DNA from: Streptomyces caelestis
Lineage (GTDB): Bacteria > Actinomycetota > Actinomycetes > Streptomycetales > Streptomycetaceae
Direction of reading: 5' to 3'
Length of the DNA stretch: 10,361 bases
Assembly: GCF_001279005.1 (NCBI RefSeq)
Contig: NZ_LGCN01000226.1
Span: 1 to 10,361 of the forward strand
Positions 371 through 10,361 of this stretch are shown here, piece after piece (within the stretch, counting starts at the first letter, position 1; each line of letters opens with the position of its first letter). The position numbers and the translations under genes were made by a program. The notes beneath the pieces are model-generated. The model saw only the letters and a list, made by a program, of their open reading frames with translations. It did not search any database and was not told where the DNA came from.

Positions 371-1594
371 TCAGCTGCCCCCGGCCGCCCCGGTCAGCAA
401 CTCGTCGGGCGACGCGGTCAGTTCGCGGCCGGTCAGGCCGCGCAGCACCGGGTAGGCGCGGGTGTCGCCGGCCAGGACGCCGCCGAGCAGCGTGCGGCCG
501 TCCGCGGCCAGGACCACCTTCGCGTAGGTGCCGGCCCGCCGGTCCTCCCGTACGTACTCGATCGCCCCCGGCGCGCGCGCGTGCGCGTCGCCGAAGCCGG
601 CCACCTCGACGCCGAGGAGCTTGAGCTTGGCGGAGCCGTCCGCCCCGGCGAACGGCTCGCCCGCCCCGTCCACCAGCTGCCGGGCCACCGTCTCGGCCAT
701 CCGGAAGCCGGGGACCACCAGCCCGTGGCAGCGGCCCTCCACGGCCGCGCACTCGCCGATCGCCCAGATGTGCTCGTCCGCGGTCCGGCACCAGCCGTCC
801 ACCAGGAAGCCCCCGCGCCCACCGCGCTCGAGCCCCAGCGGGGCGGCGAGTTCGTCGCGCGGCCGCACCCCGGCGGCGAAGACGACGAGCGCGGCGTCCA
901 GCACCGTGCCGTCGGCCAGTTCGACCCGGTCGGCCCGGCCGTCCGGGCCCGCGCCGACCGCGTGCAGCGCGCTGGAGCAGTGCACGCCCACCCCGAGCCG
1001 TTCGATCGCCCCGGCCAGCACCCGGCCGCCGCCCTCGTCGATCTGCTGGGCCATCAGCCACGGCGCCATCTCCACCACGCGGGGCCGCATGCCCAGCAGC
1101 CTCAGGCCGTTCGCGGCCTCCAGGCCGAGCAGCCCGCCGCCGACCACCACCGCCTCCCGGCCCGCTACGGCGGCCGCGCGGATCGCCGCGACGTCCTCCA
1201 CCGTCCGGTACACGAAGCACCCCGGCAGGTCGCGTCCGGGCACGGGGGGCACGAACGGCCGCGAACCGGTGGCCAGCACCAGCGCGTCGTAGCCGGTCTC
1301 GGTGCCGTCGTCGCAGGTCACCGTTCTGGCCCGGCGGTCGACGCCGGTCACCGTCGTGCCCGGGCGCAGCCGCAGGCGGCCGTCGCCGAGGACGTCGGGC
1401 CCGGCGAGGGCGAGGTCGTCGGGCGTGGCGCCGTCGAGCAGGGAGGACAGCGCCACCCGGTCGTAGGCGGCGCGCGGTTCCTCGCCGAGCACGACGACGC
1501 GCCACCGGCCGTGCCGGTCGTGCGTGAGCATCTCCTCGACGAGTCGGTGGCCCACCATGCCGTGGCCGGCCACGACCAGGGTGCGCGTTGTCAC
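371..1594 (-). CDS. NirB-like FAD/NAD(P)-dependent oxidoreductase lacking Fe-S and siroheme domains
   Basis: This 407-aa protein matches the N-terminal flavin part of NirB/NasB. It has the FAD Rossmann motif V-V-A-G-H-G-M-V-G (7-15), the AYDRVALS segment (43-50), A-L-V-L-A-T-G (104-110), the NAD(P)H Rossmann motif G-G-G-L-L-G-L-E-A (152-160), the V-V-E-M-A-P-W-L-M block (173-181), the FAD-contacting A-I-G-E-C (278-282), and a rubredoxin-reductase-like C-terminal domain with KLKLLGVEVAGFGD (323-336). Full NirB is about 800-870 aa and continues into BFD [2Fe-2S], siroheme and [4Fe-4S] domains; this protein stops exactly where they would begin, with no CxC...CxxC. The GTG start (1594-1592) shares a GTGA with the upstream stop and has AAGGAG 7 nt before it, so coupled translation is likely. 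As the last operon gene it probably passes NAD(P)H electrons toward the nitrate reductase, alone or with its paralogue at 1591-3018. A role as a free-standing NAD(P)H oxidoreductase is the alternative. Confidence 0.85.
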   Translation of the reverse strand: MTTRTLVVAGHGMVGHRLVEEMLTHDRHGRWRVVVLGEEPRAAYDRVALSSLLDGATPDDLALAGPDVLGDGRLRLRPGTTVTGVDRRARTVTCDDGTETGYDALVLATGSRPFVPPVPGRDLPGCFVYRTVEDVAAIRAAAVAGREAVVVGGGLLGLEAANGLRLLGMRPRVVEMAPWLMAQQIDEGGGRVLAGAIERLGVGVHCSSALHAVGAGPDGRADRVELADGTVLDAALVVFAAGVRPRDELAAPLGLERGGRGGFLVDGWCRTADEHIWAIGECAAVEGRCHGLVVPGFRMAETVARQLVDGAGEPFAGADGSAKLKLLGVEVAGFGDAHARAPGAIEYVREDRRAGTYAKVVLAADGRTLLGGVLAGDTRAYPVLRGLTGRELTASPDELLTGAAGGS

Positions 1595-3018
1595 GGCGTC
1601 GCTCCTTCCGCGGGGGTGTCGTCGCCGTCGTCGGCGAGGGTGGTGCACAGCCGCCGTACGACCGAGGCGCAGCCGCCGCACCCCGTCGTCGCCCGGGTCG
1701 CCCGGGCCAGCGCCGCCTCGTCGTGCGCGCCGCGGTGCCAGGCGTCCTTCAGGGCCTTCCCGGTGACGTTGTTGCAGTGGCACACCACGGCCTCGTCCGG
1801 CAGCGTCCCGTCGCCCGCGTACGCGCCGTCGGCGCCGGTCAGCAGCGCGAGCAGGTCGGCGGGGACCGGCTCGTCGCGGGCGTAGAGCCGGCTCACGGCG
1901 GCGACGGCGGACGGCGAGCCGATGACGGCCCCTTCGTGGAGGCGCCCGTCGCGCAGCACGAGGCGGGCGTGGCGGCCCCCCGCCCGGTCCAGCAGCGAGA
2001 CCGTCCCGTCGATGTCGTCCGTCCCGTCGGTGTTGTCCGGCCGGGCGGGGCCGGCCGGCGGGAGGACGACCATGTCCTTGCCCGGGGTGCGCGGCCGCAG
2101 CACGCGCCGCCCGGGCGCGTACGGCCGCTGCCGCCCGGTGAGGGTCAGGGCGAGCGCCTCCGCCTGCTCCCACGCCTGGAGCACGGTCGTGCCGACCGCG
2201 CCCGCGTGCTCGGCACAGTCGCCGATCGCGTGGACGCGCGGATCGCCGGTGCGCAGCAGGGCGTCGACGACGACCCCTTCGCGCACGTCGAGGCCGCTCG
2301 CGCGGGCCAGCGCGGTCTCCGCCACCGTGCCCGTGCACAGCAGCACGGTGCCCGCCGCCAGGACCTGGCCGTCGTCGAGGACGACCTTGCCCGGCGTGTA
2401 CTCGGCGGCCCGGCGGCCCAGGTGCAGCGTGACGCCCCGGCCGGCGAGCCACGCGGCGGGCACCGCGGCGCCCGCCGCGTCCAGGTGGCGCTCCATCAGG
2501 TGCCCGGCGGGGTGGACGAGCGCCACCTCCTGACCGGTGCCGCTCAGCGCCCAGGCCGTCTCGACGCCGCGGATCCCGCCGCCGAGGACCACGACGGGCC
2601 CCTCGGACAGGGGACGGCAGTCGGCCGCGGTGCGCACCGCGCGCACCCCTTCGGCGAGCCGGCCGGGTCCGGTCTCCAGACCCGGCACCGGCGGCACCCT
2701 CGGCCGGGCCCCGGTGGCCAGCACCAGGACGTCGTAGGGCAGTGCGCGGCCGTCGCCCGTGCGCACCGTGCGGCGGGCCCGGTCGACGGCGGTGACCCGC
2801 ACGCCGGTCAGCTGCCGCACCTCGGCGGGCAGCGCGGGCAGCGCCAGCCGGCCGGCGTCGAGCGTGCCGTCCAGGACCGAACCGAGCAGGGCCCGGTGGT
2901 AGGCGGGCCGCGGCTCGGCGCCGACCACGGTCACCCCGCCCGGGTGTCCGTACCCCACCAGCCGGGCGGCCAGCCGGTGCGCGGCCGGGCCGCCGCCGAC
3001 GATGACGACCCCGGTCAC
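1591..3018 (-). CDS. FAD-dependent oxidoreductase with C-terminal BFD-like [2Fe-2S] domain, likely electron-transfer subunit of the nitrate reductase (NasB-like)
   Basis: This is a 475-aa flavoprotein. The FAD motif is V-I-V-G-G-G-P-A-A (5-13), A-L-V-L-type strand and A-T-G lie near 97-103, the NAD(P)H motif is V-L-G-G-G-I-R-G-V-E (144-153), and the second FAD motif is A-I-G-D-C-A (264-269). A rubredoxin-reductase-like segment follows (about 340-395), then a BFD-like [2Fe-2S] domain with C413-x-C415 and C447-x-x-C450. The same order occurs in the electron-transfer subunit NasB of Bacillus subtilis, which feeds the NasC catalytic subunit, and in the N-terminal half of NirB. It is therefore the best candidate for delivering NAD(P)H electrons to NasA, encoded just upstream with a GTGA stop/start overlap. 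The GTG start (3018-3016) is supported by GGTGA 6 nt upstream. An aspartate-rich linker (about 326-340) interrupts the usual alignment. The protein is clearly paralogous to its downstream neighbour. Confidence 0.87.
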   Translation of the reverse strand: MTGVVIVGGGPAAHRLAARLVGYGHPGGVTVVGAEPRPAYHRALLGSVLDGTLDAGRLALPALPAEVRQLTGVRVTAVDRARRTVRTGDGRALPYDVLVLATGARPRVPPVPGLETGPGRLAEGVRAVRTAADCRPLSEGPVVVLGGGIRGVETAWALSGTGQEVALVHPAGHLMERHLDAAGAAVPAAWLAGRGVTLHLGRRAAEYTPGKVVLDDGQVLAAGTVLLCTGTVAETALARASGLDVREGVVVDALLRTGDPRVHAIGDCAEHAGAVGTTVLQAWEQAEALALTLTGRQRPYAPGRRVLRPRTPGKDMVVLPPAGPARPDNTDGTDDIDGTVSLLDRAGGRHARLVLRDGRLHEGAVIGSPSAVAAVSRLYARDEPVPADLLALLTGADGAYAGDGTLPDEAVVCHCNNVTGKALKDAWHRGAHDEAALARATRATTGCGGCASVVRRLCTTLADDGDDTPAEGATP

Positions 3019-5120
3019 GGCCGCTCACCCGCCGGCGTGACGCGCACCGCGCTCACCTTGAACTCGGGCATGCGGCTGCGCGGGTCGAGCGCGTCGCCGG
3101 TGAACAGGTTGGCGCGGCCGGCGCCCGGGAAGTGGAACGGCACGAACACGGTGTCGGGGCGCACCGTACGGGTCAGCCGCACGCGCGCCAGGGTGGCGCC
3201 GTGCACCGAGCCGACCTCGGCCGTCTGCCCGTCGGCCAGGCCGAAGCGGCGGGCGGTGTCCGGGTGCATCTCGACGACCGTCTCCGGCGCGGCCTCGACC
3301 AGCTCGGGCACCCGGCGGGTCTGCGCGCCCGACTGGTACTGGGCCAGTACCCGGCCGGTCGTCCCGTACAGGGGGAAGGTCTCGTCGGGTTCCCGGGCGG
3401 ACGGCCGGTGGTCCACGGAGGCGAACCGGGCGCGCCCGTCCGGGTGCGCGAACCGGTCCAGGAACAGCCGCGGCGTTCCCGGATGGGCGGCGCCGTCACC
3501 GCCGGCCGGGCAGGGCCAGTACAGGGCCTCGCCCGCGTCCAGGCGCGCGTAGCTGACGCCCGAGTAGTCCGCGCGGGCGCCGGCCGAGGCCCGGCGCAGC
3601 TCGTCGAAGACCTCCCGGGGCCGGACGGGGAAGCGGCCGGCGTCCTGGCCGAGCCGGACGGCGAGCGCGTGCAGCACCTCCAGGTCGGTGCGCACGCCGG
3701 GCGGCGGGGTCAGATGGGCGCGGCGGCGCAGCACCCTGCCCTCCAGACTGGTCAGCGTGCCCTCCTCCTCGGCCCACTGCGCCACGGGCAGCACCACGTC
3801 GGCGAGCGCGGCCGTCTCGGACGGCACGAAGTCGGCCACCACCAGCAGGTCGAGGGCCTTCAGCCGCTCGGTGACGTGGGCGGCCCGGGGCGCCGAGACG
3901 ACCGGGTTAGACCCGAACACCATCAGCGCCCGCGGCCCCCCGTCCCCGCCGAGGGCGTCCAGCAGTTCGTAGGCGCTGCGGCCGGGGCCGGGCAGTGCCC
4001 GCGCGTCCACGCCCCACACGGCGGCCACGTGCGCGCGGTCGGCGGGGTCGGCGAGCGAGCGGTAGCCGGGCAGCTGGTCCGCCTTCTGGCCCATCTCGCG
4101 GCCGCCCTGCCCGTTGCCCTGTCCGGTCAGCGTGCCGAAGCCGCTGCCCTCCCGGCCGGGCAGCCCCAGGGCGAGGGCCAGGTTGACGAAGGCGGCGACC
4201 GTGTCGGAGCCCTTGCTGTGCTGTTCGGCGCCCCGGCCCGTCAGCACGTAGGCCCGGCGGGCGCCGCCCAGCAGCCGCACCGCCGTGCGCAGGTCGTCCG
4301 CCGGCACGCCGGTGACCTCCTCCACGCGCTCCGGCCACCAGGCGGCGCAGGTCTCCCAGGCCGCGTCGAAGCCGGTGGTGCGCGCGTCCACGTACTCCTT
4401 GTCGACCAGCCCCTCGGTGACCGCCAGGTGCAGCAGGCCGAGGGCCAGGGCGAGGTCGGTGCCGGGGGCGGGGCTCAGGTGCAGCGCGGCCCGTTCGGCG
4501 GTGCGGGTGCGGCGCGGGTCGACGACGACGAGGTCCGCGTCCTCCAGGTGGCGCAGCAGCGGCGGCATCGTCTCCGCCGGGTTGGCCCCGGCCAGCAGGA
4601 TCACGTCGGCCCCGTCCAGGTCGGTGACCGGGAACGGCAGCCCGCGGTCGAGCCCGAAGGCCGCCGTGGTCGCCGCGGCCGCCGACGACATGCAGAACCG
4701 GCCGTTGTAGTCGATCTGGCTGGTGCCCAGGGCCACGCGGGCGAACTTGCCGAGCGCGTACGCCTTCTCGTTGGTCAGCCCGCCGCCGCCGAACACCGCG
4801 ACCGCGTCGGCGCCGTGCCGTGCGCGGAGCTCCCGCAGCCGGCCGGCCACCAGGTCGAGCGCCTCGTCCCACCCGGCCGGCGCGAGCACGCCGTCGGCCC
4901 CGCGCACCAGGGGGGTCAGCAGCCGGTCGGGGACGGCCAGCACGGAGGGCGCCGTCCACCCCTTCTGGCACAGCCCGCCCCGGTTGACCGGGAAGTCGGC
5001 CGAGGGCCGCACCGCCACACCGCCCCGTTCGCCCGACAGCACGGTGGAGCACTGCAGCGCGCAGTACGGGCAGTGGGTGGTGCTCTCCCGCTGCCGTCCG
5101 GGCCTCCCCTCACCGGACAT
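3015..5120 (-). CDS. nasA: Assimilatory nitrate reductase catalytic subunit (molybdopterin, [4Fe-4S])
   Basis: This 701-aa member of the molybdopterin oxidoreductase (DMSO reductase) family reduces nitrate to nitrite in the cytoplasm. The N-terminal [4Fe-4S] domain has C17-P-Y-C20-A-L-Q-C24 and C51-Q-K-G. The probable Mo-ligating cysteine is C143 in D-Y-N-G-R-F-C-M-S-S. Residues of the type G-x-G-N-G-Q-G-G-R-E-M-G-Q-K-A-D-Q, typical of NasA/NarB, are present mid-protein. The C-terminal molybdopterin-dinucleotide-binding domain (about 583-695) ends in N-L-F-T-G-D-A-L-D-P-R-S-R-M-P-E-F-K, the usual nitrate-reductase terminus. There is no twin-arginine signal and no C-terminal [2Fe-2S] domain like that of Klebsiella NasA, so electrons must come from partners, presumably the two flavoproteins downstream. 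ATG 5120 lies inside the end of the transporter gene (11-bp overlap) without a clear Shine-Dalgarno, implying coupled translation; the only upstream in-frame ATG (5246) would give an unlike, Cys/Pro-rich extension. Formate dehydrogenase is less likely given the NarK neighbour. Confidence 0.9.
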   Translation of the reverse strand: MSGEGRPGRQRESTTHCPYCALQCSTVLSGERGGVAVRPSADFPVNRGGLCQKGWTAPSVLAVPDRLLTPLVRGADGVLAPAGWDEALDLVAGRLRELRARHGADAVAVFGGGGLTNEKAYALGKFARVALGTSQIDYNGRFCMSSAAAATTAAFGLDRGLPFPVTDLDGADVILLAGANPAETMPPLLRHLEDADLVVVDPRRTRTAERAALHLSPAPGTDLALALGLLHLAVTEGLVDKEYVDARTTGFDAAWETCAAWWPERVEEVTGVPADDLRTAVRLLGGARRAYVLTGRGAEQHSKGSDTVAAFVNLALALGLPGREGSGFGTLTGQGNGQGGREMGQKADQLPGYRSLADPADRAHVAAVWGVDARALPGPGRSAYELLDALGGDGGPRALMVFGSNPVVSAPRAAHVTERLKALDLLVVADFVPSETAALADVVLPVAQWAEEEGTLTSLEGRVLRRRAHLTPPPGVRTDLEVLHALAVRLGQDAGRFPVRPREVFDELRRASAGARADYSGVSYARLDAGEALYWPCPAGGDGAAHPGTPRLFLDRFAHPDGRARFASVDHRPSAREPDETFPLYGTTGRVLAQYQSGAQTRRVPELVEAAPETVVEMHPDTARRFGLADGQTAEVGSVHGATLARVRLTRTVRPDTVFVPFHFPGAGRANLFTGDALDPRSRMPEFKVSAVRVTPAGERP

Positions 5121-6489
5121 GGGAGGCCCGGCTCTGCTGTGCGGCGGGCAGGGGGTCGCTCGGACGCTCGCCGCGCAGGTACACGGCCCGCAGCACCACG
5201 GCGCACAGCCCGTAGAAGGCGAGGAAGGACCAGAACGCGGGCGCACCGCCGCCCGCGCCGCCGTACGCCGAACGGAAGGCGAGGTTGATGGCGACCCCGC
5301 CGAGCGCGCCCGCCGCGCCGGCGATGCCGATGACGGCCCCGGACAGGCGGCGGGAGGCCGCGAAGGCCGCCGTCGCGTCGCGGCCGGAGGTGATGGCGTC
5401 CTCCGCCTGCCGGGCGAAGACCGCCGGGATCATCTTGTACGTCGAGCCGTTGCCGACGCCGCTGACCACGAACAGCCAGGTGAACCCGGCCACGAACAGC
5501 GCGAACGAACCGTTCTCGCCGGCCCACAGCAGGACGCCGGCGCCGACCGCCATCCCGGCGAACGCCCACATCGTCACGCGCGCCCCGCCGAACCGGTCGG
5601 CGATCCTGCCGCCGAGAGGACGGGCCACCGAGCCGAGCAGCGGCCCGAGGAAGGTGAACGAGGCGGCCTGGAGCGGCGTGGACCCGAACTGGCTCTGCAG
5701 CACCAGCCCGAAGGCGAACCCGAAGCCGATGAAGGAGCCGAACGTGCCGATGTACAGCAGTGAGATCCACCAGGTGTGGGGGTTCGCCGCGGCCTCGCGC
5801 TGGGCGCCCGGCTCGGCGCGCACCATGGCCACGTTGTCCATGCGCAGCGCGGCCAGCAGCGCGGTCAGCGCGATCAGCGGCAGGTAGAACGCGGCGACGT
5901 ACGCCGGATGGGTGTCCCCGGCGACGGAGATCACCAGCAGGCCGAGCAGCTGCACCGCGGCGACGCCCAGGTTGCCGCCGCCCGCGTTCAGACCGAGCGC
6001 CCAGCCCTGCTTGCGCTGCGGGTAGAAGGCGGTGATGTTGGTCATCGAGGAGGCGAAGTTGCCGCCGCCCGCCCCGGCCGCCGCGCCGATCAGCAGGAAC
6101 ACCCACAGCGGGGTGCCGGGCCGCTGCACGAAGTACACCGTCGCCGCCGCCGGCACCAGGAGCACCAGTGAGGAGAACAGGGTCCAGTTGCGTCCGCCGA
6201 AGCGGGTCACGGCACTGCTGTAGGGAAGTCTCAGCAGGGCGCCGACCAGCGTGGGCACCACCACCATCAGGAACTTCTCGTCGGGCGCGAAGTCCAGTCC
6301 GATCTTCGGCGACATGAACAGCACCAGGACCGACCACATGCTCCACACGGAGAACCCGACGTGCTCCGCGAGCACCGACAGCACCAGGTTGCGCCGGGCG
6401 ACGTGCTTCCCTCCCCGCTCCCACGCCTCCTCGTCCTCGGGGTCCCAGTTCTCGATCCACCGCCCTCGGGCGGCTCGTGCACTGGCCAT
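5110..6489 (-). CDS. narK: NarK-type nitrate/nitrite transporter (MFS)
   Basis: This 459-aa, highly hydrophobic protein has about 12 predicted membrane segments. The nitrate-signature motifs are clear: G-A-G-G-G-N-F-A-S-S-M (139-149) and G-L-N-A-G-G-G-N-L-G (166-175). The substrate-binding arginines of the NarK family appear as R87 in R-L-P-Y and R290 in A-R-P-L-G-G. The hydrophilic N-terminus (W-I-E-N-W-D-P-E-D-E-E-A-W) is typical of actinobacterial NarK proteins. It should import nitrate, or exchange nitrate and nitrite, across the plasma membrane for NasA, which follows with an 11-bp overlap. The start was set at ATG 6489, preceded by GAGGAG with a short 3-nt spacing; the longer frame from 6582 would run into the upstream lyase gene and add a Pro-rich, unlike stretch. 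Because nitrite may also be made by the upstream gene pair, nitrite export is a possible extra role. Confidence 0.9.
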   Translation of the reverse strand: MASARAARGRWIENWDPEDEEAWERGGKHVARRNLVLSVLAEHVGFSVWSMWSVLVLFMSPKIGLDFAPDEKFLMVVVPTLVGALLRLPYSSAVTRFGGRNWTLFSSLVLLVPAAATVYFVQRPGTPLWVFLLIGAAAGAGGGNFASSMTNITAFYPQRKQGWALGLNAGGGNLGVAAVQLLGLLVISVAGDTHPAYVAAFYLPLIALTALLAALRMDNVAMVRAEPGAQREAAANPHTWWISLLYIGTFGSFIGFGFAFGLVLQSQFGSTPLQAASFTFLGPLLGSVARPLGGRIADRFGGARVTMWAFAGMAVGAGVLLWAGENGSFALFVAGFTWLFVVSGVGNGSTYKMIPAVFARQAEDAITSGRDATAAFAASRRLSGAVIGIAGAAGALGGVAINLAFRSAYGGAGGGAPAFWSFLAFYGLCAVVLRAVYLRGERPSDPLPAAQQSRASHVR

Positions 6490-6515
6490 CTTCTCCTCGG
6501 CTTTCTCCGGGTCGT

Positions 6516-6550
6516 GCCGCCGCGGCCCGGTGGCTCCGGGCCGCGGCGGC
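6516..6550 (-). terminator. Intercistronic stem-loop between lyase and transporter genes (terminator or attenuator)
   Basis: The arms GCCGCCGCGGCCCGG (6516-6530) and CCGGGCCGCGGCGGC (6536-6550) are perfectly complementary over 15 bp with a 5-nt loop (6531-6535). The hairpin sits in the 77-bp gap after the lyase stop (6566) and 26 bp before the transporter ATG (6489). No T-tract follows in the minus-strand direction. It could end or weaken transcription from the first two genes, protect a processed 3' end, or act as an attenuator for the nitrate genes. I see no promoter-like TANNNT element in the gap. Confidence 0.6.
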
Positions 6551-6565
6551 GGGTGGGGTGGGGGG

Positions 6566-7966
6566 TCAGTGCCGTAGCGCACGGTCCACCAGGGCGGCGG
6601 CGGCTCCGGTGTAACCGGCCGGGTCGCACAGGCCGGCGAGCTCGCCCACGGCCGCGGGCGGCAGGCCCGGCAGGCCGGCGAGCACCTCGGCCAGCGGGCG
6701 GCCGGTGCTGCCCGTCACCCGTGCGGCCTCGGTCGTCAGCTCCCTGGCCGCGGCCTTGCCGAGCAGCGGGGCGAGGCGGGCGGCCAGCCGCTCCGAGACG
6801 ATCTGGCTGCCCGTCAGGGCGAGGTTGTCCCGCATCCGCCCGGGCCTGACCTGGAGACCTTCGGTGAGCTCGACCGCCGTGTGGGCCGCGCCGCCGGCCA
6901 GCCGCAGGCACTCGCGCAGCGGCTGCCACTCCGCGTGCCAGGCGCCGGCGGACCGCTCGTCCTCCGAGACCAGGCACTGGGTGAGCGCGGCGGCCAGGGC
7001 CGGCACCTGCAGGGCCGCGCTGCGCAGCAGGGTGGCGAGCACCGGGTTGCGCTTGTGCGGCATGGCGGAGGAGCTGCCGCGGCCGTCCGGACCGGGCTCG
7101 GCGACCTCGCCGACCTCGGTGCGGACCAGCGACTGCACGTCGACGGCGATCTTGCCGAGCGCGCCGGCCGTGAAGGCCAGCGCGGCCGCCAGGTCGGCGA
7201 CGGGGGTGCGCAGCGCGTGCCAGGGCAGCACGGGCCGGGCGAGGCCGGTCTCGGCGGCGTACGCGTCGGCCAGCCGGTCCAGGTAGTCGCCCGGATCGGG
7301 CCGCCGGCCGTCGTCGCCGACGGCCGCGTACTCCAGGTAGCCGGCCAGCGTGCCGGCCGCCCCGCCGAGCGAGACGGGCAGCCCGCCCTCGTGGACGCGG
7401 GCCAGGCGCGCCTCCGCGTCCAGGACCAGCTGCCGCCAGCCCGCCGCCCTCAGCCCGAACGTCGTCGGCACGGCGTGCAGGGCGAGGGTGCGGCCGACGG
7501 CCGGCGTGTCCCGGTGCCGGGCGGCGAGCTCCGCCAGGGCCCGCGCGCTGCGCGCGAGGTCGGCCCGGACGATGCCGAGCACCCGGTGGGCGACCAGCAT
7601 GGTGCCGGTGTCGAGGACGTCCTGGCTGGTGGAGCCCCGGTGCACGTACTCGGCGGCGTGGGCGTCCTGTTCGGCCACCACCGCGGTGAACGCCTTCACC
7701 AGGCCGACCACCGGGTTGGCGGTCTCCCGGGCCGCGAGCGCCAGCGCCCGCAGGTCGAGCCGGCCGGCGTCGGCGGCCCGCGTGATGGTCTCGGCGGCCT
7801 CCTTCGGCACGGTGCCGAGCGATGCCTGCGCCCGGGCCAGGGCGGCCTCGGCGTCCAGCATGGCCTGCAGCCAGGCCCGGTCGCCGGTGGCCGCCTCGAC
7901 GGGGGTGCCGGCCCTGACCGGCGACAGCAGCCCGGCGTCCGTGAGTCCGTCGGAGGCCGCGGTCAC
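6566..7966 (-). CDS. creD: Fumarase/aspartase-superfamily lyase, probable nitrosuccinate lyase (CreD/FzmL-like)
   Basis: This is a 466-aa lyase of the PcaB/adenylosuccinate-lyase branch. Conserved regions are H109-R-G-S-T-S-Q-D-V-L-D-T120, G158-R-T-L-A-L-H-A-V-P-T-T-F-G171, and the superfamily signature G297-S-S-S-A-M-P-H-K-R-N-P308, whose flexible loop carries the serine base and anion-binding Lys/Asn. The family includes 3-carboxymuconate cycloisomerase (PcaB), adenylosuccinate lyase and CreD, which splits nitrosuccinate into fumarate and nitrite in cremeomycin biosynthesis. The CreD assignment rests on the partner: the gene begins in a GTGA overlap with the CreE-like monooxygenase, and no other pca or purine genes are present. 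The GTG start (7966-7964) is preceded by GGTGATC, matching the extended anti-Shine-Dalgarno. PcaB-type activity remains the main alternative; the superfamily call is near certain, the substrate less so. Confidence 0.68.
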   Translation of the reverse strand: MTAASDGLTDAGLLSPVRAGTPVEAATGDRAWLQAMLDAEAALARAQASLGTVPKEAAETITRAADAGRLDLRALALAARETANPVVGLVKAFTAVVAEQDAHAAEYVHRGSTSQDVLDTGTMLVAHRVLGIVRADLARSARALAELAARHRDTPAVGRTLALHAVPTTFGLRAAGWRQLVLDAEARLARVHEGGLPVSLGGAAGTLAGYLEYAAVGDDGRRPDPGDYLDRLADAYAAETGLARPVLPWHALRTPVADLAAALAFTAGALGKIAVDVQSLVRTEVGEVAEPGPDGRGSSSAMPHKRNPVLATLLRSAALQVPALAAALTQCLVSEDERSAGAWHAEWQPLRECLRLAGGAAHTAVELTEGLQVRPGRMRDNLALTGSQIVSERLAARLAPLLGKAAARELTTEAARVTGSTGRPLAEVLAGLPGLPPAAVGELAGLCDPAGYTGAAAALVDRALRH

Positions 7967-9942
7967 ACGATCACCCCGGACAGGTCGCCTTCGGTGTCCA
8001 CCGGCCGCACGCCGACGGGCACGTGGGCCACCGGCGGCAGCGCCAGCACCGAGCGGGCGATCGCGTCGGAGTCGCCGAGGGTCACCGAGTCGACGCCGGG
8101 CCGGATGCCGGCCGCGGTCACCCAGTGCACCGATTCCGTGGGCACGCCGTAGGCGAAGCGCCGCGGGTGGGCGCGGCCCCGGCCGTCGAGCAGCCGGTAG
8201 GGGCGCTCGGTGACCGCGAGTCCGCCCGTCTCGTAGCTGGTGCCGCCCGCGCCCGCGATCCGGTACGGCGTCGCCTGGTCGGTGTCGAGCAGGTGCTGCA
8301 GCAGGGGGTCGTCGGTGCGGCGCAGGTCCGGCTCGGGCAGCCGGGCCTCGATCAGCGCGGTGGCCCGCACCGGCTCGCCCGGCACCGCCGTCGACGTCGC
8401 GACGTACACCTGGGCGGTGGTGTCGATGCGGACCTGCGTGCCCGGACCGGTCAGCGTCAGCACGCCCGCCTCGATCAGCGCGACCATCTCCTCGATGCGG
8501 GAGGACGGCGGGCCGATCGACAGGAACGCGTTGAGTGGCGTGTACCAGCCCTCCAGGTCGTCGCGGTGCGAGTCGCCCTCGAGACCGCCGTGGTCGACCG
8601 CGAGCCGGATCTCGTTGCGCAGGTCGCGCAGCACGTCCAGGGCGGCCTTGAGCGGACCGCTGACGTTGCCCTTGCGGGACTCCTCGACGTCGCGCCGCAG
8701 GTATCCGAGCAGCCAGCCGGTGAACTCCCCGCGGTCGGCGAACTCCCGCTCCCCGTACGGCCGCGACAGGCGCTCCCAGTCCCAGCGCTCCCCGGCCGGG
8801 ATGCCGTAGGAGTCGAGGAGGGCGGCCGGGTCGGCCGCCGGGTCCAGCGCGAGCAGCCGGTCGGTGAACTCCTCCCGGAGCTCCCCGTCGCCGCGCTCGC
8901 TCAGCAGCGCGCCGTAGTAGACGCTCTCCACCTCGCGGGAGATCAGCGGCCACAGGTCCTCGCCGAAGCGGACCGGCCGGCCGGCGGCGGAGCGCTCCTG
9001 GAGCGTCGCGATGTACTCGGCGGTCAGCAGGCGGGGGTAGTAGCGGCCGGTGGCGCCCTTCTCGTTCTCGCCGCGCGCGTGGTACGGGACGCCGCGCCGG
9101 GAGAAGGCGTACAGCTTCGGCTCGTTCCCCGAGGGGCGGTAGTGGAGCCCGCCGCCCGGCGTGCGCTGGAAGCGGCCGCCGCGGCCCAGCGTGAACAGGG
9201 CCATGTGGTCGAAGAAGTTCAGGCCGAGCCCGCGCAGCAGCACGTTCTGGCCCGGCCGGATGCCGGTCAGGTCCAGGTCGGCCGGGTTGGCCGGGGTGAC
9301 GTAGGTGAGGTGGTGGATGCGCGCGAGGCTCGCGGTGCGCGCCTCGCGCGCCGACAGCCGGGCCGGGACGTGGCCCTGGGCCATCACGACGGCGTCCAGC
9401 TCGTTGAGCCGGGTGCCGTCCTCCAGGCGGACGCCCTGCGGGCCGCCGGGCACGCCGTGCGTGTCGGCCGCGGCGACGGCGCGCGAGCGGTGCACCCGGA
9501 CCTCGACGTGGGCGGGCGCGGACCGCACGATGCGCTCGAAGCAGTCCTGGAGGTAGCGGCCGTAGAAGGCGCGCGTGGGGTAGGAGTCGGGGCCCAGGCG
9601 CCGGGCCTCGGCGAGGGCGACGGGGTCGACCTCGGCCGGGTCGCCGAGCAGGGCCAGGGTCTGCGCCCACTCGTGGAGGCTGGGGCCGGACTCGACGGGG
9701 CCGTCGATCCGGGCGCTGTCGTCGGTGAAGACGGTGATCTGCGACGCCACCGTGTTCATCAGCAGGTGCTGCGACTGCCCGGTGCGCCACACCATGCCGG
9801 CGCCGGGCGCCGAGGGGTCGACGACGTGGACCGTGACCGCGCTGTGCGCCGGGGCGCCGCGCTCGTTGGCCAGCAGCCGTTCCAGCACCGACAGCCCGCG
9901 GGGGCCGGCGCCGATGATGCAGACCTCGAGGGTGCTGCTCAT
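7963..9942 (-). CDS. creE: FAD/NAD(P)-binding monooxygenase, probable L-aspartate N-monooxygenase forming nitrosuccinate (CreE/FzmM-like)
   Basis: This 659-aa soluble protein begins with an FAD Rossmann motif, C-I-I-G-A-G-P-R-G-L-S (8-18). A second dinucleotide motif, V-L-L-R-G-L-G-L-N-F-F-D (234-245 region), is followed by G-R-G-G-R-F, L-H-Y-R-P-S-G-N-E-P-K and F-S-R-R-G-V-P-Y-H-A-R, hallmarks of the NAD_binding_9 (FAD-NAD(P)-binding) family. CreE and FzmM, the enzymes that oxidise the amino group of L-aspartate to nitrosuccinate, are large flavoproteins of this kind and are paired with a fumarase-family lyase, as here. No signal peptide or membrane segment is seen. The ATG at 9942 is preceded by CGGAG with 7-nt spacing, the best ribosome site in the region. 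It is the first gene of the minus-strand block; its upstream region contains strong inverted repeats. Other NAD_binding_9 hydroxylases acting on other amines are possible, so the substrate is inferred from the gene pair. Confidence 0.68.
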   Translation of the reverse strand: MSSTLEVCIIGAGPRGLSVLERLLANERGAPAHSAVTVHVVDPSAPGAGMVWRTGQSQHLLMNTVASQITVFTDDSARIDGPVESGPSLHEWAQTLALLGDPAEVDPVALAEARRLGPDSYPTRAFYGRYLQDCFERIVRSAPAHVEVRVHRSRAVAAADTHGVPGGPQGVRLEDGTRLNELDAVVMAQGHVPARLSAREARTASLARIHHLTYVTPANPADLDLTGIRPGQNVLLRGLGLNFFDHMALFTLGRGGRFQRTPGGGLHYRPSGNEPKLYAFSRRGVPYHARGENEKGATGRYYPRLLTAEYIATLQERSAAGRPVRFGEDLWPLISREVESVYYGALLSERGDGELREEFTDRLLALDPAADPAALLDSYGIPAGERWDWERLSRPYGEREFADRGEFTGWLLGYLRRDVEESRKGNVSGPLKAALDVLRDLRNEIRLAVDHGGLEGDSHRDDLEGWYTPLNAFLSIGPPSSRIEEMVALIEAGVLTLTGPGTQVRIDTTAQVYVATSTAVPGEPVRATALIEARLPEPDLRRTDDPLLQHLLDTDQATPYRIAGAGGTSYETGGLAVTERPYRLLDGRGRAHPRRFAYGVPTESVHWVTAAGIRPGVDSVTLGDSDAIARSVLALPPVAHVPVGVRPVDTEGDLSGVIV

Positions 9943-9968: not shown

Positions 9969-10009
9969 ACGGCGGGCGGCCGGAGCGACGGGGACCGGCC
10001 GCCCGCCGT
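9969..10009. promoter_or_regulatory. Strong stem-loop just upstream of the CreE-like gene
   Basis: The arms ACGGCGGGCGGCCGG (9969-9983) and CCGGCCGCCCGCCGT (9995-10009) are perfectly complementary over 15 bp around an 11-nt loop. The structure ends 26 bp before the CreE-like ATG, so in a transcript starting further upstream it would form in the 5' leader. It may be an attenuator or an operator; the sequence alone does not decide. Its right arm overlaps the first 7 bases of the 94-bp repeat. Confidence 0.5.
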
Positions 10010-10096
10010 GCAGGACGGTGAGAGGGGCGCCGGGCCGGGGACCGGAGGACCGCGGACACCGGGGTGTGCGAACCGTCGGGTCGCACACCCCGGTGT
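10003..10096. repeat. 94-bp direct repeat, copy 1
   Basis: This stretch is identical base for base to 10268-10361, with a 265-bp period and a 171-bp spacer. It starts CCGCCGTGCAGGACGGTGAG and ends in the right arm of an internal inverted repeat. Upstream of both copies a shared ccggcc element suggests that similarity extends leftward with a 4-base indel. It may be part of a tandem array or a duplicated regulatory block. Confidence 0.9.
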
Positions 10097-10099
10097 CCG
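10053..10099. repeat. 19-bp perfect inverted repeat (stem-loop or operator-like palindrome) in repeat copy 1
   Basis: The left arm CGGACACCGGGGTGTGCGA (10053-10071) and right arm TCGCACACCCCGGTGTCCG (10081-10099) pair perfectly around a 9-nt loop, ACCGTCGGG. No T-tract follows on either strand. The structure is long enough for a terminator, a dimeric-repressor operator or an extragenic palindromic repeat. Its presence in both copies of the direct repeat makes chance unlikely. Confidence 0.85.
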
Positions 10100-10170
10100 G
10101 GCCCGGACCGGGGCACGGCGCCCGGGAACCACCGGCGTGTGGGGCCGGGGGGCGTCACGGGCGGGACGGT

Positions 10171-10263
10171 GGGGCGGTGGGGCGGGGATGCGGCGGGGGG
10201 GGGCCGGGCGGCCGGGGGGGGGTGGGGGGTCGCACGGGGGGCCGACCCGGCGGGGGGGCGGGG
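10171..10263 (+). other. G-rich tract with G-quadruplex potential
   Basis: The plus strand carries repeated runs of four to nine G. The first four (10171-10174, 10179-10182, 10184-10187, 10195-10203) are separated by loops of 4, 1 and 7 nt, which fits the canonical four-tract quadruplex pattern. More runs follow at 10214-10222, 10252-10258 and 10260-10263. The tract fills most of the spacer between the two 94-bp repeats. Two 9-G runs also make it prone to sequencing or assembly error. Confidence 0.6.
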
Positions 10264-10267
10264 CCGG

Positions 10268-10361
10268 CCGCCGTGCAGGACGGTGAGAGGGGCGCCGGGC
10301 CGGGGACCGGAGGACCGCGGACACCGGGGTGTGCGAACCGTCGGGTCGCACACCCCGGTGT
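10268..10361. repeat. 94-bp direct repeat, copy 2 (runs to window edge)
   Basis: This is an exact copy of 10003-10096. It includes the left arm of the inverted repeat (10318-10336), the same 9-nt loop, and the first 16 bases of the right arm before the window ends. The true repeat may be longer, and further copies may lie beyond the edge. Confidence 0.9.

Follow-up and report, generated by a model that had tools for sequence, protein, structure and literature searches.

An array in Streptomyces caelestis combines two predicted routes to nitrite, probably for a diazotising natural-product cluster

The 10,361-bp stretch of Streptomyces caelestis DNA analysed here (the window) is an entire contig, C225, of an 8.6-Mb genome assembled in 287 contigs, and its six genes, ansE, ansD, narK, nasA, fdrBFD and nirBN, all lie on the minus strand. 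We consider it likely that this operon forms one half of a diazotising natural-product cluster and supplies its nitrite, two routes feeding a ligase. In the first route, AnsE would oxidise L-aspartate to nitrosuccinate, using 3 NADPH and 3 O2, and AnsD would split nitrosuccinate into fumarate and nitrous acid. In the second, nitrate would be imported by NarK and reduced to nitrite by NasA, with NAD(P)H electrons passing through two flavoproteins that resemble the N-terminal part of NirB. Since the operon encodes no nitrite reductase, both routes would end at nitrite, which a neighbouring CreM/Pzm18-like ligase would activate with ATP, thereby diazotising an arylamine. In many relatives this arylamine is probably 3-hydroxyanthranilate, because genes for its formation lie in the cluster. 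The enzyme activities, the substrate of the ligase and the use of both routes in one cell are deduced here from sequence comparisons.

A first-pass annotation of this DNA had proposed a CreE/CreD-like identity for the first two gene products, and the comparisons bear this out. The gene ansE (7963-9942, minus strand) would encode a CreE/FzmM-type FAD/NADPH L-aspartate N-hydroxylase of 659 residues. Its product contains the Pfam domain NAD_binding_9 (PF13454, E value 2.2e-43) and aligns with a solved L-aspartate N-hydroxylase (PDB 8cp2) at an E value of 3.6e-204, with 354 of the 595 aligned residues (59%) identical; no NCBIfam model matched. All nine catalytic and entry-chamber residues described for L-aspartate N-hydroxylase in the part of PMC10404684 consulted are kept (R13, N62, R266, R276, R409, R412, N413, R416 and R577 in 8cp2 numbering), and of the outer arginines that contact aspartate, R593 is kept and R597 is replaced by alanine. 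The second gene, ansD (6566-7966, minus strand), would encode a CreD/FzmL-type nitrosuccinate lyase of 466 residues with Lyase_1 and ADSL_C domains, which scores 778 bits on the NCBIfam nitrosuccinate lyase model NF052556 (cut-off 650) and matches CreD (PDB 5xny) at an E value of 2e-179. AnsD also passes one PcaB model (TIGR02426, 376 bits, cut-off 356) and fails the other (378 bits, cut-off 595), so that, judged by score, the kinship with PcaB is real yet second-best, the nitrosuccinate lyase score being twice as high; a grouping of the pair with PcaB and unrelated hydroxylases, which the first-pass annotation had named as the opposing outcome, was not found. E49, H118, D125, H253 and R341 (CreD numbering), with the pairs E49/H118 and D125/H253, are retained in AnsD. 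These residues are discussed for CreD in the portion of PMC13411527 consulted, which reports them in PpCMLE and PaFlcC as well, so they do not exclude those functions for AnsD. By these comparisons, AnsE and AnsD are best classed with CreE/FzmM and CreD/FzmL, respectively, as an aspartate-nitrosuccinate (ANS) pair.

The four remaining genes form a predicted nitrate cassette. The product of narK (5110-6489, minus strand), a putative nitrate/nitrite transporter of the major facilitator superfamily (459 residues), matches the solved NarK structure 4u4t at an E value of 6e-83 and conserves in the alignment both substrate arginines, R89 and R305. The gene nasA (3015-5120, minus strand) encodes a putative catalytic subunit of an assimilatory-type molybdopterin nitrate reductase (701 residues) with three molybdopterin domains (PF04879, PF00384 and PF01568), a CPYCALQC motif holding the [4Fe-4S] cysteines and CMSS at the position of the molybdenum ligand; these domains, the [4Fe-4S] cysteines and Cys-Met at the molybdenum site are what a NasA/NasC-type nitrate reductase would show. 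Compared by sequence, the solved chains closest to NasA are those of formate dehydrogenases, with periplasmic nitrate reductase coming next. The gene fdrBFD (1591-3018, minus strand) encodes a pyridine-nucleotide flavoprotein joined to a BFD [2Fe-2S] domain (PF07992 and PF04324), which resembles the N-terminal half of NirB (TIGR02374, 226 bits) and presumably forms the electron donor chain to NasA. Finally, the 407-residue product of nirBN (371-1594, minus strand; PF07992 and PF18267) resembles the N-terminal part of NirB, aligning to positions 1-396 of the 794 in TIGR02374. Pfam searches found no siroheme domain (NIR_SIR) among the window proteins and, since the cassette flavoproteins lack one, the cassette should make nitrite and stop there.

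The genes ansE through nirBN may be co-transcribed. Within each half, adjacent genes overlap by 4 bases between ansE and ansD (GTGA, as described in the first-pass annotation), 11 between narK and nasA, and 4 each between nasA and fdrBFD and between fdrBFD and nirBN, and co-transcription would have to cross only the ansD-narK gap (6490-6565). The same-strand order of narK, nasA and two flavoprotein genes had been recognised correctly in the first-pass annotation; the gap, given there as 77 bp, counts 76 bases, and the interval assigned to the locus, 3015-9942, leaves out both flavoprotein genes (3018-1591 and 1594-371), which belong to the array.

NarK and NasA are both of assimilation types, and the same NasA and NirB N-terminal families serve Streptomyces nitrate assimilation, so the nitrate genes might be a nutritional assimilation operon that chances to adjoin a diazotising cluster. 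We consider this very unlikely. The operon has no NIR_SIR nitrite reductase, whereas NIR_SIR domains of the same genome are found on C107 and C209, and C209 carries a separate nasA near a full-length nirB (868 residues) that is followed by a 116-residue frame, presumably nirD. Compared with this assimilation locus, the window lacks the siroheme half of NirB, and its NasA is only 67% identical to that of C209. The window NasA is also separated with full support from three other NasA proteins (that of C209 and those of G013 and G366). In addition, when 18 sequences from 17 clusters of the window's type were scanned with a 9-position consensus, no GlnR-like box lay between the operon genes, and the few matches fell within coding regions or outside the operon; three control loci (L087, L122 and L123) do have matches in front of nirB- or nasA-type genes. 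With 25 matches over 24 sequences totalling 454 kb, this pattern is a weak one. A single clade for the NasA of ligase-type clusters was rejected (p value of the approximately unbiased test, 0.007), as NasA from alanosine-like and other contexts falls among them in the tree, and we have therefore dropped the idea of one acquisition. Related nasA genes in other gene contexts (L106, L110, L111, L109 and L113) form one NasA clade.

The predicted consumer of the nitrite lies on another contig. Genes for a CreM/Pzm18-like ligase (AMP-binding), an SRPBCC protein and a quinone reductase stand at the end of C246 in the same genome, pointing off the contig, and this ligase is 92% identical to the one that precedes ansE in G367. 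In Streptomyces pilosus JCM 4403 (L148), all nine genes are consecutive and in this order, the ligase frame is open, and ansE, ansD and narK are each 95% identical to those of the window. No common stretch longer than 13 bases was found between C246 and C225, the end of C246 being low-complexity G/C, and it is the gene content together with the S. pilosus order that suggests the link between the two contigs. In relatives, the genes preceding ansE usually encode an AMP-binding ligase, an SRPBCC protein and a quinone reductase of the zinc type; a gene for a 3-hydroxybenzoate-6-monooxygenase-like protein is sometimes present as well, and genes for DAHP synthase, DhbA, isochorismatase and a PhzE-like protein often lie near the pair. 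This context favours diazotisation among the purposes that the first-pass annotation had offered; for the others, nitric oxide (NO) signalling and a loop returning aspartate nitrogen as nitrite, nothing was found in favour.

To place the array among relatives, we used two partly overlapping sets of genomes. In a genus sample of 392 genomes, AnsE had a match at E values of 1e-60 or below in 316; many of these matches are far weaker (about 1e-60 to 1e-115) and could represent different N-hydroxylases. Among 40 of the best-matching CreE loci, 13 have both narK and nasA after ansD (nasA of L047 is cut by a contig end), and among 15 lower-matching ones none does. A NasA search of the same 392 genomes yielded 40 genomes at E values of 1e-280 or below; among 16 NasA loci that lack a close ANS pair (15 of the 20 fetched plus C219 of the same genome, the remaining five having more distant NasA), the cassette stands behind the same ligase in four (L104, L105, L108 and L112, the last with a relic between). 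Two of these nitrate-only loci, L104 and L108, also carry an asparagine-synthetase-like gene and one for arylamine N-acetyltransferase (by Pfam in L108, by similarity in L104), a hint that the aryl product may be amidated or acylated. Named actinobacterial genomes, scanned with ten aligned ligases, gave 212 relatives. The best 80 of them were scored by tblastn with the window proteins, and many of these are the same genomes as in the genus sample. Both routes are present in 21 of these 80 loci, the ANS pair only in 25, the nitrate cassette only in 14 and neither in 20, where presence means one tblastn stretch of at least 55% identity for ansE and ansD and at least 66% for nasA within the locus, adjacent or not. 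All 21 loci with both routes have the order ansE-ansD-narK-nasA (20 by gene calls, L150 by tblastn). The pairing with narK-nasA, whose confinement to this genome the first-pass annotation had named as a refuting outcome, is a recurrent arrangement. The 80 loci include Streptomyces, Kitasatospora, Micromonospora, Nocardiopsis, Kutzneria, Longimycelium and Kibdelosporangium, among other genera.

These counts vary with the identity thresholds, and several of the loci sit at contig ends. Downstream contig is short in nine of the 45 ANS-only and neither loci, including five of the 25 ANS-only ones with less than 6.5 kb. L169 (ansE, no ansD) and L153 (a 42% ansD-like frame, no ansE) are counted as neither, and L149, with a stump of narK, as ANS only. 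L182, which ends 1.2 kb after the ligase, is also counted as neither, and what is presumed to be the same genome (G331) has both routes on another contig (L047); in L158 and L159, sisters of nitrate-only loci, the contig ends right after the ligase. NarK-like proteins with 44-45% identity, encoded divergently from ansE in three loci without the cassette (L042, 11488-12591; L053, 13026-14297; L054, 12988-14244), were not counted as cassette members; they may export nitrite or the product.

The nitrate-only loci bear directly on the chance-adjacency explanation, as the cassette accompanies the same ligase without the ANS pair in these 14 of the 80, standing after the ligase on the same strand in 12 (in L187 with a monooxygenase between). 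One of the nitrate-only type is L156 of S. albogriseolus. In the other two it is arranged differently, upstream in L178 and on the opposite strand in L212, which argues for repeated joining of the cassette. A ligase tree was built with 85 rows, one for each of the 80 loci, one for the window and four for genus-sample loci, some genomes appearing twice, and each trait needs 17 changes on it; on a smaller tree of 38 rows, whose labels were set by hand from maps, with L055 and L057 (ansE, no ansD found) labelled ANS, the two traits need 8 and 7 changes. Such change counts cannot separate gain from loss.

Relics show that either route can decay. L112 (G069) retains between ligase and narK a decayed ansD of 268 residues with gaps and no ansE, and L105 (G009) retains two ansD fragments (E value 4e-6) at the same place, both with an intact cassette; these two loci are additional to the 14 nitrate-only ones named above. 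Conversely, L149 (Streptantibioticus ferralitis) has an intact ANS pair with narK reduced to 105 of 459 residues and no nasA, whereas in its sister L150 both gene sets are complete. In S. toxytricini, nasA lies in two frames (L044, 13704-15784; L189, 17714-19794), representing either damage or a sequencing error. In the nitrate-only genomes G069 and G356, the best genome-wide CreE match falls outside the CreE range (E values of 7e-90 and 3e-94). From the three locus states and the relics of either route, the two routes are most likely interchangeable suppliers of nitrite for one diazotisation step.

The same relics, the two-frame nasA, the 17 changes per trait and an ANS-only locus in the window's own tree group could instead mean that the redundancy is transitional, with one route mattering in this strain and the other being a leftover or a newcomer. 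We regard this as unlikely, since every window gene of both routes is open with its residues conserved, and the window's tree group has six other rows, five of which hold both routes. Furthermore, the ratio of nonsynonymous to synonymous substitution rates (dN/dS) against five relatives is 0.23-0.45 for ansE, ansD, narK and nasA (20 comparisons), 0.38-0.59 for fdrBFD and 0.24-0.38 for the nirBN rows that remain after two of the 30 rows in all (nirBN against L142 and L034), which had aligned to a paralogue, were dropped. These values indicate purifying selection on both routes, and both look maintained in the window's lineage. We give an even chance to a more far-reaching reading: that the dual state is a working hub, in which dedicated and chemically independent nitrite sources keep diazotisation going under different supplies of oxygen and nitrogen, and that clusters shift among three states (both routes, ANS only, nitrate only), either route being liable to decay. 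One source would need O2 and NADPH and take its nitrogen from aspartate, and the other would need molybdenum and external nitrate.

Several observations weigh against a joint nitrite supply for diazotisation. A hairpin with a perfect 15-bp stem lies on the minus strand within the ansD-narK gap (6516-6550) and might be a terminator, an attenuator or a processing site; it is GC-rich, has no T run and reaches a z score of -4.2 against mononucleotide shuffles, so the two operon halves may be expressed separately. The corresponding gaps of L036/L138, L142, L148 and L044/L189 hold shorter perfect stems of 8-11 bp, and in L039, L041, L046 and the relic locus L112 ansD runs 4 bases into narK. NarK falls below its family cut-offs (TIGR00886, 280 bits against 312; NF011608 also), and NarK-family proteins are able to export nitrite; the best NCBIfam model for NasA, NF047855 (NasC), is likewise missed at 730 bits against 1100. 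The PhzE-like and DhbA-like genes of this genome, expected for 3-hydroxyanthranilate, are on a separate contig (C224). On the AvaA6 diazotase model NF058622 the C246 ligase scores 86 bits against a cut-off of 975; general acyl-CoA ligase models give it more bits, though without reaching their own cut-offs. It is therefore a presumed diazotase by its kinship with Pzm18 and CreM, and Pzm18, called a CreM homologue in the part of PMC9323291 consulted, is itself a proposed diazotase. Among the 80 loci, neither route is in view in 20, four of which have less than 3 kb of contig downstream, and the ANS-only locus of the window's nearest-relative group is that of S. tagetis (L145). Finally, of four genus-sample genomes with nitrate-only loci that were examined, G009 and G239 hold a CreE-range match elsewhere (E values of 7e-205 and 3e-203), so that nitrite derived from aspartate may still be made there.

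A different fate for the nitrite, the production of NO for signalling or for NO-dependent N-nitrosation, draws on alanosine, for which the consulted parts of PMC10831120 and PMC11705231 report reductases that make NO. The same genome does contain a related narK-nasA-fdrBFD-nirBN cassette, in a cluster without ANS genes on C219 (G000, 16000-54900; L086 and L133). Its neighbours encode an acyl-CoA dehydrogenase (N-hydroxylase-like), an AMP-binding protein, a thioesterase and the diaminopropionate proteins SbnA and SbnB (TIGR03945, 378 bits against 350; TIGR03944, 391 against 327), and, judged by pathway logic and the part of PMC11705231 consulted, this set of genes fits a cluster of the alanosine type. 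Eight genes of the C219 type (64-84% identical) stand beside ansE-ansD in G080 (L219), where no cassette was found in the 19.9-kb stretch, in agreement with the reported alternative reductase route for alanosine. For the window, NO production nevertheless appears the least probable of the explanations considered, and a very improbable one, since the cluster has a CreM-like ligase, of a kind reported to use nitrite and ATP, and no NO-forming reductase or NO synthase is found among the six window genes.

Three further features of this and related genomes may be mentioned. A direct repeat of 128 nt with an internal 23-bp palindrome occupies 9969-10361 in two copies (9969-10096 and 10234-10361), and the contig ends there. 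A second NAD_binding_9 protein (C239, 6064-8337; L088) was set aside as an ANS enzyme at 30-35% identity; it is encoded beside an aminotransferase and near a condensation-domain gene and is possibly an N-hydroxylase. In G108 (C1; L034), the dual operon's ansE and nasA are each found at two places with equal scores, near 0.10 Mb and near 11.22 Mb on a chromosome of 11.33 Mb. Such a position close to both ends resembles that of terminal inverted repeats.

Already known are the ANS pathway, diazotising clusters with such a set of genes and the nitrate reductase substitute in alanosine. Cremeomycin and fosfazinomycin clusters use the same two enzyme families (CreE/CreD and FzmM/FzmL), whose catalytic residues are conserved here, but in the window the nitrate cassette follows directly, and none is mentioned for those clusters in the accounts consulted. 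The gene content of the relatives' clusters is of the same kind as that of the penzonemycin (pzm) cluster, for which the consulted part of PMC9323291 lists CreE, CreD, the CreM homologue Pzm18, SRPBCC, quinone reductase and 3-hydroxyanthranilate genes, Pzm6-9 being proposed to make that compound; the gene table there contains no nitrate reductase. CreE, CreD and CreM homologues are also ascribed to the tasikamide (aha) cluster in the consulted part of the review PMC11705231, and relative to pzm and aha the window's relatives add the cassette to the ANS pair or carry it instead. For alanosine, the same partly consulted sources (PMC11705231 and PMC10831120) link nitrate-nitrite reductase genes (alnP/Q/R) to the N-oxide nitrogen in clusters without ANS genes. 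That route resembles ours in that the alanosine-like cluster of C219 has the cassette and that of G080 the ANS pair, and differs in that it is reported to lead via NO to a diazeniumdiolate, whereas the window type would lead via an ATP-dependent ligase to an aryl diazonium. The pyrrolomycin genes pyr18/pyr19 likewise place nitrate reductase components inside a natural-product cluster, but in the part of PMC10831120 consulted they are linked to nitro-group formation and no ANS pair is mentioned. The first-pass annotation had named no described system with both routes in a single operon, and a literature search that covered neither most subscription journals nor the primary alanosine paper found none either; within it, "nitrosuccinate lyase" and "nitrate reductase" never occurred together in one paper. 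What seems new is thus the presence of both routes in one array, the substitution by the cassette in clusters of the aryl-diazotising type, and relics that show loss of either route.

In the consulted part of PMC10777205, 72 of 134 surveyed ava-type diazotising clusters lack ANS genes, leaving their nitrite source open. A portable nitrate-to-nitrite cassette that replaces or adjoins the ANS pair next to a diazotase-like gene would be a concrete and testable kind of source, and it offers a mining handle for N-N bond clusters missed by ANS-guided searches. It also predicts that nitrate in the medium should feed the product in nitrate-only strains. The loci described here, with both routes, either one or neither, provide a natural series in which the replacement of one precursor route by another can be studied.

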